From Methylobacter tundripaludum (GTDB lineage: Bacteria > Pseudomonadota > Gammaproteobacteria > Methylococcales > Methylomonadaceae), in contig NZ_PTIY01000001.1 in the NCBI RefSeq assembly GCF_002934365.1, forward strand, positions 62,001 to 126,000: 64,000 nucleotides of DNA, in the 5' to 3' direction. Below the pieces are notes generated by a model. That model ran no database searches and had not been told where the DNA came from. It was given only the letters and a program-made list of their open reading frames with translations. Made by a program: the position numbers and the translations under genes. Below are positions 15,901-23,703 of this stretch, piece after piece (position 1 is the first letter of the stretch; every line of letters begins with the position of its first letter).

Positions 15901-15998
15901 ATTATACCAATCCAATAAGTTTTTATTTGACCCCCTCAACCTAACCTTCTCTCGCTGGAGAAGGGATAACATGCGAACTTATTGGGATTGGTATTACT
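15901..15998. repeat. Inverted-repeat element at the res stop codon
   Basis: Two arms of about 21 bases: TTATACCAATCCAATAAGTT on the left and, reversed from the right end, GTAATACCAATCCCAATAAG. They enclose a short stretch with CTCTCGCTGGAGAAGGG. The right arm contains the stop codon of the type III restriction gene (15994-15996). A non-coding MITE-like or hairpin repeat. Confidence 0.65.
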
Positions 15999-18900
15999 TC
16001 ACCAACTCCATCAGCTTGCCGTAACTGTCCACCACACCATACTTGACTTGCCCGGAAGTGATTTTGCCAAAAAACTTCCCCGCACAATCAATTCTGCATT
16101 GCTCGAGTTTCCTCAACTCCATCGACGACATCGAACCTTTAGTTTCGGCGATAAAATAGACATGCTTGACCGCACCTTCTTTAAATGAAATAGCCCAGTC
16201 GGGATTGTAATCGCCTACGGGGGTAGGAATAAAAAACCCCTTCGGCAACTTGGCATAAACAACCACTTCTTCGCTGATGTCGAGTTCGTTGACGAACGCG
16301 CGCTCAATCTTGGAATCGGTAAATACATAATCGTAAATATGGCGATTCAGTTTATCCCCGGCCTTGCTTAAATCCAGCGTCCGTTTTTCCTGGGTAAAAA
16401 TATCAAGACTATGGGTTCCGGCAATCGTGTCATACGCCAGATGCTCGACGATGACGGTAGCTTTCTGCTCATTAATCAGTCGCGTAGCTTTGGCAATAAA
16501 ATCTTCCGGGTTGGTTGGGTATTGGTTGAACGTATCCGGCTGTATTCCCTGAAGAATACCGGCAATGGTTCGGCGGGTAAGATTCGACTCTTGCGCCAGT
16601 TTGCCGATAAGATCGTATTTAACCGTGGAACGGATAGAGTCCTTATCCGACGCCGTTATTGACTCCATCACCTTGAACGACTCTCCTTGTTTGACTTCAT
16701 CATAAACAGCTTCGTTCTTTTGTTCGCCGCGTTGGACGGTGTATTGCAAAGGGCTTACATGCAACTCCTTATCCAGCTCAAGCACACATTTATCAATCAG
16801 TTCCGGCGTTTCAAAATCGACGGTATAGACAGCCTTACGGTTGATTCGCCGCCAAAGCTCCTTGAATTCTTTCTTGTCGAAATTGGCGTTGAGCGGGTTG
16901 ATTCTGCTGTTGCGATCATTACCAATGGGCGGCAATTGGGCATCGCTGAACACGCTGTCAATCAGCTCGAACACTTGCTCGGCATAAACCGCCAATTCCG
17001 GCGGCAACGCAGCAAGCCGCCCTTCCTTCTTGGCGTCGTGATAAGTTAAGGTAATTTTATCGCCGTCATCGGTGTAATCGTTTTTCAGTAAATATTTATA
17101 AATTTGCTTGGCAAGTTGCGCCGTAACTTCCACATCCCCAGCCGCCGTTTTAAGCACTTTGCCGGTAAAATATTTTTCATCCGCGATGCGGGGACGCGCT
17201 GACAGCGACTTGCTAATATCGCTCTGCAGGCCGGTGACGAATTCCGTGTAACTCTCGCCGGTCACGACGGTCAGCACATTCACCTGATGCACGGTTGCCG
17301 GATTGTCCATGCGCTCGCCGAACTGGTTGACCGAAAGCCGCATGCCGCGCCCGACTTCCTGGCGGCGCGAGATGGTATTGTCGCTATGCTTCAACGTGCA
17401 GATAACGAACACATTCGGATTATCCCAACCCTCGCGCAGCGCGGAATGGGAAAAAATAAAGCGCACCGGTTCGCTCAACGACAACAAGCGTTCCTTGTCT
17501 TTCAAAATCAAATCGTAAGCGTCCACATCATCGGTTTCGGTAGACTTTTTCCCGGTCGCCGGATCGACCAAGCGCTTGCTCTTTTTATCGATGGAAAAAT
17601 AGCCCTGATGGGTTCGGTCAGCCCCGATACCCCGCAGGTAATCATTGTAGGGATTGTCGTCTGGCGTCAGTACCTCATCCAAATAACGGCTGTATTCCTG
17701 CTCGAACATTTGCGCGTATTCGCCGGAGCTTTCCCCGCTTTCGTCGTAGCACCGATACTTGGCTACCGTATCGATAAAAAACAGCGACAACACCTTAACG
17801 CCCTGATGAAACAGCGCCTGCTCTTTTTCAAAATGGGCTTTAACGGCTTCGCGGATTTGGATGCGCCGCAACGTAGATTCGTTAACATCCCCGACAGCCT
17901 CGCCTGCCGTCAACTCCACGCCATTGGTAAAGCTAAGGGTATCGGTATATGCATTAATATCCGCAACCACGAAGCCTTTATATTGATCCAGCTTGGACAG
18001 CTCGAACAGATTATCGCCTTTGCCGAGCTTGCGCAGCACCCGTTTAATGCCGGTGTTTTGCTTGATTTCCAGCTCGACGCGACCGACCGGCGCTTTGGCC
18101 GTCGAAACTTCAATACTATCCAGATATAAATAAGCGTTGGCGCCGCTCAGATTTTTGACCGAAATCCCGCGCACCGATATTTTTTTCACCAGCTTCTGGT
18201 TATAAGCGTCCAGCGCATCGAGACGATGGATTTTATTGTGCTCGGTTTTATGCGTGGCGGAATAGCGCAAAATCATCAGCGGGTTAAAGCCCTTCAGCGA
18301 TTCCAGCGTTTTCGCCCCTTCCATCTTTTGCGGCTCGTCCAGAATCAAAATCGGGTTATTCGCCGCTATCACATCAATCGGCTTGCGCGACTGGAAATCG
18401 TCCAACTCCTCATAAATACGGCGATTATCCTTGCCGGTCGCATTAAACGCCTGCACGTTGATGACCATCACATTGATACCGGCGTCGGACGAAAAGCTTT
18501 CCAGGTTATGCAACTGCTTGGAGTTATAGATAAAAAACCGGGCGCGCTTGCCGTAGTCTTCCAAAAAATGCTCGGCGGTGATCTCCAGCGATTTATACAC
18601 GCCTTCGCGGATCGCGATACTCGGCACCACCACGATAAACTTGCTCCAGCCGTAGCGCTTGTTCAACTCGAACACCGTCTTGATATAGCAATAAGTCTTG
18701 CCGGTGCCGGTTTCCATCTCAATATCCAGGTTTACCGGGCAAATTTTGCCGCCAGCCAGCGCCGTGGACAGCGGCAGGTTTTGACGGCGTTGCACGTTGT
18801 GGATGTTGTCCAGAATACACGGCGGCGTCAGCGCAAGCTTGTTATTGCAAAAACCGTTGCCATCCAGCAGGCTTTGCTGCGCCCCCGGTTTAACGCGGCC

Positions 18901-19014
18901 CGGATCGACGCGGTATTGAATCCCGGCGGTTAGCGACTGCCCGGCAAAGCAATCAGCCACGGCTTCGACGGCGCTGGTTTGATACGCTTGCTTCTTAAAC
19001 TTCAGTTTCATCAT
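15994..19014 (-). CDS. res: Type III restriction enzyme, helicase/nuclease subunit Res
   Basis: ATP-dependent DNA translocase and endonuclease that works with Mod and cuts DNA with unmodified head-to-head sites. The ATG at 19014 gives 1006 residues (EcoP15I Res about 970); a TTG at 19026 is also in frame. SF2 motifs are in order: [13 protein letters not shown] (I) near residue 100, [11 protein letters not shown] (II), RYSATHKTE (III) and [13 protein letters not shown] (VI). A PD-ExK nuclease site lies near the C-terminus (NPDWAI ... FIAETKG). The start overlaps the end of the Fic gene by 20 nt. Mod lies two genes upstream rather than adjacent. Confidence 0.95.
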
Positions 19015-19450
19015 CGTTTCCGGCAATCGCGTTAAAAATCTTCAACTTTAATCCTTCATCATCCATTTCTTCGGCGAGGAAGGCAGTTATGATCTCATGT
19101 AATAAATCCCTATCAATATTTCCGGCGGCGACGTGATAACTGATATTTTCCATCTCGCGTAAAAATCGGGTCGCGCAATATAGATAACCATTAAAAAGCA
19201 GCATTTGTGTGCATAAGGTAATGGCTATTCGTTTATTGCCGTCGGCAAAACAATGGAATTTATTGGCGCTAAAGAACAGATGGGTTAATTTGTCTTCAAA
19301 AGTCGGGTAGTAATCATCGTTCTGGATATGGTCCAACACGCTTGCCAGCTTACCTAAATCAAGATGCTCAAGCGTACCGCCACCGCTCACTTCCACCGTT
19401 TTCCGGTGAGTATCAATTGCCTGCTCAATAGTCAGATAAATGACCGTCAT
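18995..19450 (-). CDS. Fic/Doc-family protein inside the type III R-M operon
   Basis: 151 residues. The Fic signature [11 protein letters not shown] starts at His66 and fits HxFx(D/E)GNxR, so the nucleotide-transferring loop is intact. The N-terminus ([20 protein letters not shown]) resembles Doc (death-on-curing) toxins. Members AMPylate or phosphorylate targets such as EF-Tu or gyrase; the target here is unknown. No (S/T)xxxE(G/N) inhibitory helix is obvious in this protein. Its start overlaps the HTH gene stop (TAATG) and its end overlaps res, so the three are tightly coupled. Confidence 0.9.
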
Positions 19451-20475
19451 TAATCCCGATCCTTAAGGCGTTTCATGACATCTTTGGCATCTGCCAAACG
19501 GTCAGCCAATTCTTGGCTTCTTTCGCCAATAAACCGTTCAAACTCATCCCGTTGTAGCGGGGTAACATATTCTTGTAATTGATGATGCAACGCATCTCGA
19601 AATGCTAGATCGCGACTTGCCATTTTCATTCGCGCTTTTTCAATGAGCGGTTTCCAGTGACTCTGAGTCTCAAATATTTTAAACAGAACATCGACTTCCG
19701 AAGGTTTGAGTTTGCGGCCTTTTGCCTTAGCTTCCTGCCGGAGAAGATCACCGAACCCGCACTCGTAAGCGGCAATCAGATCCAACACTTCCGAATAAAG
19801 AGTGGGCCGGACACTATCTTTGTCTTCAAGTTTTAGTATTTTTCGGTACTCCTTCGCGTTCTCACGAAAAATACTGACATAAATTTTGTTGGTGTACACA
19901 GGATATTTAAAATTACCCATATCAACACAATCGTCCAGGGCATCGGTAAACTCTTTGCGATAGTTTTCCTCAATGAAGGCAGAGTGCAGAAAATCTTCGT
20001 CACGCTGGTTAATATACTTAGTGCCGCCGCCGGTACGCTGGTTAATAATGTCGATGACAATATCCAGAATCGCCTGACGCAATAATTTTGCCCGGTCACT
20101 TTCCGAAACCAGCATAGCCAAGTTCAGAAAAGCGCGGAAATCAAAAATACCCAATTGCGGGGTCTTCGTGATGTTCCCGAAATCAGTTTCGGGAACATCC
20201 ATAAGATGAATTGCTTCTTTTAATGATTTCAGTCGCTTACCCTTCAATACTACATAACCGTTTTTTGCCAATTCAGAGGCATTTTGCTCCAGATAATTTT
20301 CAATAGTTCTAAGCGTTACCTCAAAAAAAGCGGCTACCTGCTCTTTAAGCAGAACAGTTTTCCCCTCAAACGGAATGCCTCTAATTCCCGCCGCCTTTTC
20401 AATTTCAGCAAGGGCATAAGGATTATTAAGAATATTTTGCCGATCAATCGAGGAATTGGTCAGGTCTTTGTTCAT
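19450..20475 (-). CDS. HTH DNA-binding protein, partner of the Fic gene (RhuM-like)
   Basis: 341 residues from the ATG at 20475; a GTG at 20484 is the alternative. Residues about 35-75 read as a helix-turn-helix (GKTVLLKEQVAAFF, VTLRTIENYLEQ), similar to the N-terminus of RhuM-type DNA-binding proteins. The middle (FDFRAFLNLAMLVSESDRAK, then a LLRQAILDIVIDIINQRTGG stretch) and the helical C-terminus recur in proteins found next to Fic/Doc genes. The stop overlaps the Fic start. Likely role: antitoxin or operon regulator; this is inference. It is more AT-rich than the R-M genes. Confidence 0.7.
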   Translation of the reverse strand: MNKDLTNSSIDRQNILNNPYALAEIEKAAGIRGIPFEGKTVLLKEQVAAFFEVTLRTIENYLEQNASELAKNGYVVLKGKRLKSLKEAIHLMDVPETDFGNITKTPQLGIFDFRAFLNLAMLVSESDRAKLLRQAILDIVIDIINQRTGGGTKYINQRDEDFLHSAFIEENYRKEFTDALDDCVDMGNFKYPVYTNKIYVSIFRENAKEYRKILKLEDKDSVRPTLYSEVLDLIAAYECGFGDLLRQEAKAKGRKLKPSEVDVLFKIFETQSHWKPLIEKARMKMASRDLAFRDALHHQLQEYVTPLQRDEFERFIGERSQELADRLADAKDVMKRLKDRD

Positions 20476-20539
20476 AGTGCCCACTCAAAAGGTTTAAAGT
20501 ACGCGGCGCAGTCCACAGCTTGTTTTTCTATCATTGTTC

Positions 20540-20655
20540 TAAGGAAGCGCTGAACATATTGATTCCATTCATGGTTCGACAAGCTCACCACGAACGGAAT
20601 CAATATGTTACCGTTCATCCTGAGCCTGTCGAAGGATTTAATCAGCGCTTCCCTA
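20540..20655. repeat. TA-flanked MITE-like element at the mod stop codon
   Basis: 116 bp with terminal inverted repeats TAAGGAAGCGCTGA (left) and TAGGGAAGCGCTGA (right end, reversed). A strong inner palindrome is CATATTGATTCC against GGAATCAATATG. The element is bordered by TA on both sides, the pattern left by Tc1/mariner-IS630 type transposition. The first three bases of its right end are the TAG stop of mod. It separates mod from the HTH gene and would fold into a hairpin in the operon transcript. Confidence 0.75.
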
Positions 20656-22722
20656 AAGAACTTTCATTTCAGTAGTCGGCGAAATGAGCTTGAAGATTTG
20701 TTCGATGTTGATCTTCACGCTGTCGCCGGCAAAACCTGAGTCTTGAAATACCACACGCAACGGATGACGGGCGGCGAGTTCCTTGACGAAGGCCTCGTTA
20801 ATGTCGGCATCGAAACAGGCGGCCAGCGCGTTGCCGTCGACAAACCACACGGTCTTACCGGCGATAGTTTCCTGAGCGATAGGCCGCGTCAAATCCACGC
20901 CCCAGTCCAGCAGCACCTGGAACAATAAATCTTCGGCGCTACGGTCTTCTCGGATATTGTCGACATGGTCGATCAGGTCGCTTTGCTGCACCGCGTCGGG
21001 CGTGTAGTAAACGTCCTTCATGTTGGAACTGTCGATTTTCAGCACGCGGAAGCCGATGTCGAGGTTGTCTATGCCTTCCTTGCCTACGTTGTCCTGCCTG
21101 ATTTTTTGCCCGGCGCGGCGGATGCGTTCTTTGCTTATCTCGGCAATATTTCTCGGTTTATCGATGTCATCACAAAATTTCGCAGCTATCTTTTGATCCT
21201 TTTTATCAACATCAACTGCCTCGGGAATTTGAACCAAAACATAATGCCGCCTTCCGCCGTCGGACAGATTTGCTTCGAAAACAGCGTGTGCAGTGCTGGC
21301 ACTGCCAGCAAAAAAATCCATGACAACTGCGTTAGAATCGTCTGCGGTTACATAGCTAATCAGCTTTGCCAGTTCAAAATGATCTTTGGGGTTGTTAAAT
21401 GCTTTTGCACCCAGAAGCCCGCGAAGAAACTTTACCGCAACTTGAGACTGCTTATAAAAATAAGTCCCTCTAACCTGTGTTGCCAACTGTTCATCTTCGG
21501 ACTCCTCCGTTTCGTTCATATCGACTTCGGCAGCTATCTCAGCAGGAATCGGGCGGATATGGGCCTTGCGAAACGGTGGTTGTGAGTGGTCATCTCTGAA
21601 TTCCACTAAGCCCAGCTTAATTTGCTGCTTCATTGTTGACTCTTCAAAACGCCAACCGCTTTCGGGAACCTTGCAAGGCAAACCTGTCCTCGGATGTAGC
21701 ACATCGTATCTAGGGCCGCCACCACCGGGCCAGGAAATATCCCGGTCACGCCAAGGACCGTTTTCGTCTATGCGCTTATAACGACTCCATTTTTTTGAGG
21801 GATGATTTTTAGAAAGCGCGGAAAACCATGCTTGAAGATCGGCTTCGATAAGCGAATCGTTTGAGCCATGAAGATTACGCAAAGAAAGATATTCAGCCCA
21901 GATTTCCTTGGCTCCCGGTTTTTCCTCTCGCCAGATGACATTTCTGTTACGCAACTCATCAAGCGACTTTGCAAAAATCAAAATGTACTCATGCCCAACA
22001 GAAACCAGTTTCGCATCATTCTTTCTGCCTTTTTCCCAAATCATTGAGGCAATAAAATTAGCTTCTCCAAAAACCTCATCACACAGCCGCTTGAGATTCG
22101 CCTGCTCATTGTCATCAATTGAAATAAAAATAACCCCGTTGTCCCGCAACAGGTTCCGCGCCAGCTTCAAACGCGGGTACATCATGCTCAGCCAGTCGGA
22201 ATGGAAGCGGCCATTGGTCTCGGTGTTGGCGACCATGCGCTGCCCGGCTTCGTCTTTCTGGTTGGAGCGCTGGAAATAACTGGCGGTGTCCTCGCTAAAA
22301 TCGTCGTCGTAGATGAATTCCTTGCCGGTGTTGTACGGCGGGTCGATGTAAATCATCTTGACCTTGCCCAGATAGGTTTCCTGCAACAGTTTCAGCGCAT
22401 CGAGGTTGTCGCCTTCGATAAACAGGTTTTGCGTGCTGTCGAAATCGACGCTTTCTTCGCGGTAAGGGCGCAAGGTCTTGGCGATCGGCGCGTTGGCGGT
22501 CAATAAGGCCTCGCGCTTGCCCGGCCAGTTGAGCTGGTAACGCTCTTGCGGCCCTTCAACCACCGATGTGGAAAGCTCTTGCCGCAGTTGGTCGAAGTCG
22601 ATAGCTTGCTTCAGCGTTCCGTCGGCCTCGCGGGTCTCGGTCACGCAATTGGGGAACAGCTCGGCCAGTTTGGCGATGTTCTGCTGGGTAAAATCGGGGC
22701 TGTGCAGCTTGAGTTTTTCCAT
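20653..22722 (-). CDS. mod: Type III DNA methyltransferase subunit Mod
   Basis: N6-adenine methyltransferase and specificity subunit of the type III system. The ATG at 22722 gives 689 residues and fits the family opening (MEKLKLHSPDF); a longer frame to 22812 runs into a repeat and is rejected. Beta-class order: catalytic motif IV MIYIDPPYNTGKEF near residue 145, then a variable region (about 230-470) likely to be the target-recognition domain, then the SAM motif VMDFFAGSASTAHAV. The C-terminus (IEQIFKLISPTTE) looks complete although the stop lies in a repeat. Confidence 0.95.
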   Translation of the reverse strand: MEKLKLHSPDFTQQNIAKLAELFPNCVTETREADGTLKQAIDFDQLRQELSTSVVEGPQERYQLNWPGKREALLTANAPIAKTLRPYREESVDFDSTQNLFIEGDNLDALKLLQETYLGKVKMIYIDPPYNTGKEFIYDDDFSEDTASYFQRSNQKDEAGQRMVANTETNGRFHSDWLSMMYPRLKLARNLLRDNGVIFISIDDNEQANLKRLCDEVFGEANFIASMIWEKGRKNDAKLVSVGHEYILIFAKSLDELRNRNVIWREEKPGAKEIWAEYLSLRNLHGSNDSLIEADLQAWFSALSKNHPSKKWSRYKRIDENGPWRDRDISWPGGGGPRYDVLHPRTGLPCKVPESGWRFEESTMKQQIKLGLVEFRDDHSQPPFRKAHIRPIPAEIAAEVDMNETEESEDEQLATQVRGTYFYKQSQVAVKFLRGLLGAKAFNNPKDHFELAKLISYVTADDSNAVVMDFFAGSASTAHAVFEANLSDGGRRHYVLVQIPEAVDVDKKDQKIAAKFCDDIDKPRNIAEISKERIRRAGQKIRQDNVGKEGIDNLDIGFRVLKIDSSNMKDVYYTPDAVQQSDLIDHVDNIREDRSAEDLLFQVLLDWGVDLTRPIAQETIAGKTVWFVDGNALAACFDADINEAFVKELAARHPLRVVFQDSGFAGDSVKINIEQIFKLISPTTEMKVL

Positions 22723-22805
22723 GTTTTTTAGCTTAAGTTTGTTTTTGTGGGTAAGGCTTGGCCACGGCGCACCGCTACGCTGCTCCTGCATAATCCACCG
22801 GGGAA

Positions 22806-22925
22806 CATGCATAAATTAATTTAAGTAATCACCATGAAGCGCATGAAGGACATGAAGACTTAAATCCTTCATGTACTTCATGGTTTAAAAATAAAATTTG
22901 CTCAAGTTATTTCATGCACGATCCA
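22806..22925. repeat. MITE-like element, family 1, copy C (left end degraded)
   Basis: Begins ATGCATAAATTAATTTAAGT and ends CAAGTTATTTCATGCACGAT, the same end sequences as copies A and D. The inner CATGAAG palindrome is shorter. The left end lacks the outer TTAGGATCG bases, so this copy is truncated or older. Confidence 0.75.
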
Positions 22926-23163: not shown

Positions 23164-23454
23164 ATGGCAGAATCGAAAACTTATCTGAATGTACCTTTCG
23201 CCCAAAAGGATGAGGCTAAAGCGCTCGGCGCAAGGTGGGACGCAGTCCAGAAGAAATGGTTTGTCCCGGCGGATAAGGACGTTGCGCTGTTTGCCAGATG
23301 GCAAGCTGAATCCGGCGCTGTCGAATCGCCGAGAGCGAAGACTTCATCGTCCCATATCAGTTCTTCATCCAAGAAGTCCGCCTCCGGCGTCAAAACCCAT
23401 GCGACGGTTAAAGATTTTGTCGCCTATGACGGCGATGCGCCGCCTTGGGATTAA
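23164..23454 (+). CDS. DUF5710-domain small protein
   Basis: 96 residues. The domain covers residues 5-40: TYLNVPFAQKDEAKALGARW, then DAVQKKWFVP. This short fold is usually found fused to DNA primase-like or plasmid proteins, and here it stands alone. A Ser/Lys-rich low-complexity linker follows, and the tail ends in DGDAPPWD, similar to the C-terminal acidic DDxxPF-type tip of SSB. That resemblance suggests, but does not show, a DNA-metabolism role. It is an accessory gene lying among repeats beside the R-M operon. Confidence 0.8.
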   Translation: MAESKTYLNVPFAQKDEAKALGARWDAVQKKWFVPADKDVALFARWQAESGAVESPRAKTSSSHISSSSKKSASGVKTHATVKDFVAYDGDAPPWD

Positions 23455-23556: not shown

Positions 23557-23703
23557 TTAGGATCGTGCCTAAATTAATTTAGGCAATTACCATGAAGAGC
23601 ATGAAGGACATGAAGACTTAAACCTTTCATGCCGCTTCATGTCCTTCATGGTTAAAAAATGAAAAATAAAACTTGCTCAAGTTATTTCATGCACGTTCCT
23701 TAG
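23557..23703. repeat. MITE-like element, family 1, copy D (near-identical to copy A)
   Basis: 147 bp, same length as copy A and differing at only about three to five positions over the shared body. Ends: TTAGGATCGTGCCTAAATTA at the left and CAAGTTATTTCATGCACGTT at the right. The near identity suggests recent movement or gene conversion. Confidence 0.85.

Follow-up and report, generated by a model that had tools for sequence, protein, structure and literature searches.

Toxin-antitoxin (TA) or other defence genes embedded in restriction-modification (R-M) operons are already known, according to the available parts of two reports (PMC12255303, PMC12629846), and Doc-type and RhuM-like genes near R-M genes with RloC/PrrC were noted in 2013, where the excerpted text reads them as multi-level defence (PMC3710099). 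Two toxins with Fic domains are particularly relevant here. Doc phosphorylates EF-Tu and thereby stops translation (PMC7180214, excerpt), and SoFic is described as a Fic-domain anti-phage toxin (PMC12249575, excerpt). We analysed a stretch of 64,000 nucleotides of the Methylobacter tundripaludum genome (assembly GCF_002934365.1, contig NZ_PTIY01000001.1, positions 62,001 to 126,000), hereafter the window, in which a gene for a helix-turn-helix (HTH) protein and a Fic/Doc-type gene lie between mod and res of a type III R-M operon. We consider it slightly better than even (a probability of roughly 0.55) that this HTH-Fic pair is a Doc-type TA module and, as predicted from sequence comparison, one of many interchangeable second-line defences that this type III subfamily accommodates between mod and res.

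Inserts at the junction of mod and res

The junction was compared within one Res subfamily using 2 samples, with individual loci given by L numbers. The family sample has Res relatives at 45 places, in 43 of 237 genomes. We left out 8 places that were fragmentary or cut by contig edges, joined 2 pieces belonging to a single gene, and fetched 36 loci, 33 of which show the junction. In the phylum-wide sample, Res was found in 37 of 398 genomes, at 38 places, of which 33 were fetched and 32 resolved; left out were our own genome, already in the family set, and 4 places cut at the contig start. The gap was taken from the aligned end of Mod (family) or the end of the Mod open reading frame (ORF; phylum) to the first aligned Res residue, which is not a proven start codon.

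Among the 65 junctions, 21 are empty, 43 are filled, and 1 is unclear (L200). Specifically, 7 of the 33 family junctions are empty (gap of at most 75 bp) and 26 are filled, with inserts that include PIN/VapC (6), HTH-Fic (5), ParE (3), SoFic (3), and YhcG (2), along with 7 singletons—i.e. RhuM, HicAB, zeta, AAA_21 with DUF4276, an OLD-like insert (with a RhuM piece), a UvrD/GajB-like insert, and PDDEXK_3. The phylum-wide sample has 14 empty junctions (gap of at most 40 bp) and 17 filled ones among its 32, the remaining one being unclear. Its inserts are RhuM (5, one a remnant and one with HEPN), SoFic (3), MNT-type (3, two with HEPN and one, L193, with UPF0175 instead), HTH-Fic (2, one with RhuM), AlbA_2-like (2), Bro-N (1), and one of no family (L209). 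By class, 21 of the 43 inserts are of TA type, HTH-Fic included, and 12 are SoFic or RhuM. Several names come from BLAST to inserts that were themselves profile-scanned or labelled (L149, L150, L156–L158, L162, and L171; likewise, for RhuM and SoFic, L183, L187–L189, L191, L197, L210, and L211), the RhuM of L163 was named by tblastn with another RhuM, and the ParE match of L151 falls just under the Pfam cut-off (22.6 of 23 bits).

The identity of the cargo shows no visible tie to the R-M genes. A Res tree of 34 rows and 13 labels covers the 33 family junctions and L154, in which Fic alone can be seen; on it the label of the cargo switches 23 times, compared with 24.0 for shuffled labels. For example, the nearest relative, which belongs to the same genus and has a Res that is 91% identical, carries VapB, a DUF2281 protein, and a PIN protein in place of HTH-Fic, and its DNA stops matching that of the window 46 bp short of the aligned end of Mod, the match resuming at Res residue 6. 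In 22 of the 26 filled family junctions, no more than 36 bp separate the end of the insert from the first aligned Res residue, irrespective of the insert family, the exceptions being 3 SoFic loci and L178.

These observations bear on the idea that the pair, like the other TA modules found there, is an addiction guard that kills cells losing the R-M operon and thus stabilises the operon, with no direct anti-phage role. Doc is a classical death-on-curing toxin (PMC7180214, same excerpt), the share of TA-type inserts would fit, and the majority of inserts touch or overlap res, so that both would be lost together. We nevertheless regard it as unlikely, given that the pair also occurs away from R-M genes (see below) and that cargo is lost and replaced, with related loci being empty or holding another module; indeed, empty junctions in relatives and cargo turnover weaken the proposal, made in an earlier note on this stretch, of a guard against loss of the R-M system. 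We also know of no addiction role for SoFic, RhuM, YhcG nuclease, or UvrD-like inserts.

As a control, we took the 15 first same-strand genes of at least 150 aa located just downstream of res. None of these 15 belongs to a classical TA toxin family, compared with 16 of the 26 family inserts (Fisher P = 5e-5, a rough value as the rows are related), and shorter ORFs downstream of res, which were compared solely by BLAST to the TA inserts, gave no match. The special trait of the junction is TA-type cargo and not defence genes as such, and its surroundings are a defence neighbourhood. A dCMP-deaminase protein encoded downstream of res in L152 may be akin to the anti-phage protein AvcD.

The control also speaks to a further reading, in which the junction merely tolerates inserts within a defence island and the modules are selfish, contributing neither to defence nor to stability. 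Cargo turnover as high as that of random labels favours it, as do defence-like genes downstream of res, the 2 decayed members of the pair (both described below), and shortened RhuM pieces (L173, L189, and L192), which lie at the junction by themselves or next to another module and are perhaps scars of earlier cargo. By contrast, the concentration of TA toxins at the junction and the low ratio of nonsynonymous to synonymous substitution rates (dN/dS) of both HTH and Fic argue against mere hitchhiking, which we find rather unlikely.

A few junctions are worth describing in their own right. L185 holds 2 modules in one junction (mod-HTH-Fic-RhuM-res), and the sole insert of L194 is a Bro-N protein of about 290 aa, of the phage-antirepressor kind. 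Related small proteins of DUF2281 type precede PIN or ParE toxins in L148, L149, L151, L158, L159, and L162; it looks as if antitoxin ends were kept while toxins were swapped at the mod-res junction. In the SoFic junctions (L157, L170, L171, L183, L197, and L210) 118–362 bp precede the first aligned Res residue, unlike in most inserts, which leaves room for a putative small AS1-like antitoxin gene; AS1 has been described with SoFic (PMC12249575, excerpt). Finally, our own genome contains, outside the window, a row of genes with overlapping ends that consists of a type I methylase-like gene, a RhuM gene (PADLOC), and a specificity subunit-like gene (L096, C1:12710-13444), a candidate for a second embedded module.

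The HTH-Fic pair and its proteins

A scan of GTDB species genomes returned 235 HTH relatives, of which 80 were kept (64–93% identical, from many phyla). Fic lies directly 3' of HTH in 77 of these 80 loci, and the contig ends at that point in the other 3. Of 73 full-length Fic rows, 72 have an intact HxFxDGNKR motif; these 73 rows are the window and 72 of the 77 Fic-bearing loci, with L015, L035, and L054 (contig ends), L044 (frame stops at 100 aa), and L050 (a 143-aa frame with an intact loop, where the script read beyond the stop) left out. Of 7 comparisons with close relatives, 5 gave a dN/dS for HTH, at 0.040–0.074, and 2 gave one for Fic, at 0.050 and 0.105; the remainder were saturated at silent sites. 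Because the pairing is kept in dozens of species, the loop in nearly every row, and dN/dS is low, the pair is more than a chance neighbourhood. It is uncommon, however, as a phylum-wide search found HTH in just 11 of 398 genomes, several of these hits being fragments or weak. Decayed members exist as well: the Fic frame of L044 is shortened, and the loop of L022 reads GNKH.

The host settings of the 80 HTH relatives are diverse: 27 are type III, 14 type I, 6 of bacteriophage exclusion (BREX)/PglX type, and 33 other or unassigned, where many contigs are short, as classified by tblastn with the window's Mod and Res plus neighbour clusters, with some members checked by profile. Among the 27 type III loci, res is visible at least partly in 22 (only partly in L012 and L014) and the contig ends first in 5. 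The order mod-HTH-Fic-res thus recurs, a point on which the earlier note had made novelty depend. The idea that these 4 genes form a defined unit is not supported, because the pair is also found in type I, BREX/PglX-type, and non-R-M loci and in satellite phages; the unit is the HTH-Fic pair. For example, in L022, L031, L041, and L059 the pair sits beside housekeeping genes with no res near, and one plasmid record has the order mod-res-HTH-Fic. The HTH gene also occurs in 4 Streptococcus satellite phages, and in the 2 that were read Fic is next to HTH beside an integrase; HTH carries the annotation "CiaB protein" in both, Javan319 (L093) and Javan742 (L094), and the former has no annotation for Fic.

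The Fic protein matches the PADLOC profile PDC-M59B (4.1e-39, residues 3–145 of 151) and, in PHROG, the Doc-like toxin phrog_577 (3.5e-13). Its loop, reported intact in the earlier note, is indeed so and reads HCFADGNKR, with GNKR as in Doc instead of the GNGR of AMPylating Fic proteins. The same difference, seen in all but one of the Fic rows counted above, sets the family apart from the toxins of class I FicT-FicA pairs. The model of the protein (predicted local distance difference test, pLDDT, of 88.8) superposes on P1 Doc with a Z of 15.6 (2.0 Å over 120 residues), and the top non-Doc Fic protein reaches a Z of 7.9. Model and sequence agree on a Doc-fold toxin with an NKR loop. A lysine in the loop turns the Fic fold into the Doc kinase (PMC7180214, excerpt), and position 73 of our Fic protein corresponds to it, which suggests that the protein may act as a Doc-like kinase.

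The HTH protein matches PDC-M59A over nearly its whole length (1.7e-104, residues 3–339 of 341; PADLOC). Pfam and NCBIfam scans of it gave no family match, so that a Phd/YefM-type antitoxin, which would show up as a Phd/YefM family match, is not what this 341-aa upstream protein looks like. In PHROG it matches a transcriptional regulator (9.8e-5), and the model, of modest quality (pLDDT 71.7; predicted template modelling score 0.44), predicts a winged HTH (wHTH) and a helical domain. Named viral matches of this model are mainly KilA-N, antirepressor, BRO, and MSV199 proteins, while a search of the family against the sequences of solved structures returned nothing credible, and likewise with a RhuM alignment as query. 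The layout of the genes had hinted at RhuM (PF13310); profile comparison does not support it, aligning 31 columns of the wHTH only (E = 0.13, against a RhuM alignment of 6 sequences), and Pfam gave no match. The C-terminal helix, although well conserved, has low model confidence, which would be compatible with a segment that takes up its fold on a partner.

Among solved structures, the closest to the HTH model is Deinococcus DdrC, with a Z of 12.4 over 204 residues (residues 26–280; root-mean-square deviation 10.1 Å, 11% identity), although mostly helical models can reach such Z values through a common arrangement, without kinship. Foldseek pairs the two with a probability of 1.00 (E = 2.7e-3), the next unrelated structure has a Z of 5.6, and DdrC shows no sequence match to the HTH protein at E ≤ 10. 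A bolder and quite improbable proposal builds on this likeness. The HTH partner would be a DdrC-like sensor of broken or nicked DNA that keeps the Doc kinase silent and frees it when restriction, BREX, or phage leaves DNA ends—i.e. a translation switch triggered by DNA breaks—and the mod-res junction would be a standing dock with a single slot, where bacteria swap such death modules and keep their R-M genes.

It is very unlikely that the chief role of the HTH protein is regulatory, holding res back behind mod on entry into a new host, with Fic as an accessory. The predicted DNA-binding fold and the PHROG match would suit such a role, as would the position of the gene ahead of res in the same direction. 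On the other hand, the junction works with cargo that is free of this HTH protein or with no cargo at all, the pair is present where no res is near, and HTH travels with Fic rather than with res. Unrelated cargo lacking this HTH protein occupies that very junction, in most cases just as close to res, which weakens the earlier suggestion that the HTH protein regulates res.

Layout of the operon and the spacer

A complete type III operon, with mod, HTH, Fic, and res as 4 open, co-directional ORFs, lies on the minus strand of the window (Table 1). The Mod protein has an N6/N4 methylase domain and Res has helicase and endonuclease domains, as expected for type III; both genes are intact, and methylation and cleavage are predicted from their sequence. 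The HTH start is the ATG at 20475, with an in-frame GTG at 20484. Its stop codon TAA shares one base with the ATG of Fic (TAATG), and the 3' end of Fic runs into res, by 32 nt if res starts at the TTG and by 20 nt if it starts at the alternative ATG. The 4 genes and their overlaps are as the earlier note had described them; mod, however, is not tightly joined to HTH, the spacer lying between them.

Table 1. Coordinates of the operon genes and of the spacer, in positions of the window.
Feature	Position	Strand	Description
mod	20653..22722	-	type III DNA methyltransferase, 689 aa; DPPY and FFAGSAS stretches in translation; PF01555 (4.9e-26), PADLOC MTase_III (3.9e-236)
mod/HTH spacer	20476..20652		177 bp; palindromic repeat at 20536-20650
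HTH gene	19450..20475	-	341 aa, PDC-M59A; predicted wHTH and helical domain, conserved C-terminal helix
Fic/Doc-type gene	18995..19450	-	151 aa, PDC-M59B; PF02661 (1.9e-10)
res	15994..19026	-	type III restriction endonuclease/helicase, 1010 aa from TTG; alternative ATG at 19014; ResIII, RE_endonuc, PADLOC REase_III (E 0)

Most of the spacer is filled by the palindrome, which is 115 bp long. It has at least 57 matches in its own genome at E ≤ 0.001, and 23 of these, own copy included, are near full length and at least 86% identical; its RNA folds far better than shuffled versions (z = -6.7). Type III relatives usually have 6–70 bp between mod and HTH, which suggests that the spacer was inserted later; the repeat is probably an element resembling miniature inverted-repeat transposable elements or repetitive extragenic palindromic sequences that has parted mod from the rest of the operon.

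Promoter-like sites number 4, compared with 5.2 in shuffles, and terminator-like sites 8, compared with 5.3, and we draw no inference from these counts. A tRNA scan of the window found none. Just upstream of mod, a DUF5710 gene (23164-23454) is flanked by direct repeats at 22802-22924 and 23560-23699; these repeats are of 72 and 38 nt, and 88% and 95% identical.

Weighing the readings and comparison with described systems

If the HTH-Fic pair is a second-line defence, the Fic protein would be a Doc-like kinase that halts translation (through EF-Tu in the case of Doc), and the HTH protein would bind both DNA and Fic and hold the toxin silent. Phage infection may then disturb this hold, be it through DNA binding, damage, or shut-off of the operon, and the freed toxin would arrest the growth of the infected cell. 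Co-translation with res would tie this suicide arm to restriction, the arm acting when restriction fails. We favour defence over addiction and hitchhiking for two reasons: what the inserts have in common is a toxic or anti-phage function, not addiction, and the pair is also present at places away from R-M genes. As a prediction from sequence, the second defence arm put forward in the earlier note is the best among the readings we weighed.

Several points weigh against this preference. To begin with, the pattern across genomes would be nearly the same under addiction or under hitchhiking within a defence island, and the usual clustering in such islands may account for part of what we see, given that no fewer than 3 of the 15 genes downstream of res are defence-like (AAA_13 in L161, ThsA_Macro in L170, and AAA_21/PHP in L174). 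The R-M genes work without cargo, because 21 of the 65 junctions are empty, and 10 of the 43 inserts are neither TA-type nor SoFic or RhuM. Exchange among hosts is not free either. On an HTH tree of 84 proteins, 4 host labels change 29 times against a shuffled mean of 39.6, with none of 200 shuffles as low, and among the 49 rows of the 3 named host types there are 11 changes against a shuffled mean of 17.7; host type is clustered beyond chance, yet far from a single origin per host type. At the protein level, the Fic protein scores 34.4 bits against the NCBIfam model DOC_P1, under the cut-off of 38.65. Its partner is not Phd, and "antitoxin" is a label that we infer for it from position and conservation. 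The motif [ST]xxxE[GN], by which the partner in FicT-FicA pairs inhibits the toxin, is present in just 32 of 81 HTH rows and is not conserved.

If our preferred reading of an exchangeable second-line defence is true, type III operons of this subfamily have a fixed slot for suicide modules, which would make them a counted, phylogeny-based case of one defence embedded in another and would make mod-res inserts a source of new TA pairs. The junctions also amount to a natural swap experiment, in which similar R-M systems carry Doc, VapC, ParE, HicA, zeta, SoFic, RhuM, or nothing. With such a set, one can ask whether a second module widens protection against phages or only stabilises the operon.

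The pair is already a PADLOC candidate, and embedding in R-M operons is known. Our literature search found no naming of the HTH-Fic pair or PDC-M59 and no mod-res exchange site, some of which a preprint on genetic embedding may contain. A close embedded example is DarTG2 in a type I R-M operon, which is likewise a TA module between R-M genes; it differs in its toxin, in being type I and not type III, and in having a separate repressor, RptR, that governs the island (PMC12255303, excerpt). The excerpted 2013 report on genes near R-M loci describes no mod-res junction, HTH-Doc pair, or cargo exchange (PMC3710099).

SoFic occupies the same mod-res junction in 6 of the 65 loci (one found by PADLOC and five by BLAST, at 61–82% identity). 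It is, however, a single AMPylating protein of about 370 aa with a GNGR loop, whereas the Fic protein of the window is a 151-aa Doc with a predicted DNA-binding partner. DdrC resembles that partner in predicted fold over the residues given above and differs from it in sequence, and we know of no toxin partner for DdrC.

PDC-M59, an uncharacterised phage-defence candidate of PADLOC, is a close counterpart, as both proteins match it near full length, in the same order and adjacent to each other. The PADLOC library offers no mechanism for it, and PDC candidates are said to come from a preprint on "genetic embedding". Finally, the toxin half resembles that of Phd-Doc of phage P1 in its fold, its size class, its loop with the kinase lysine, and its upstream, overlapping partner gene, phd likewise preceding doc. 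The partners are unlike one another—i.e. Phd is small, and the partner in the window is a 341-aa protein with a wHTH and a helical domain—and the pair thus gives a Doc toxin an unfamiliar, predicted DNA-binding partner.

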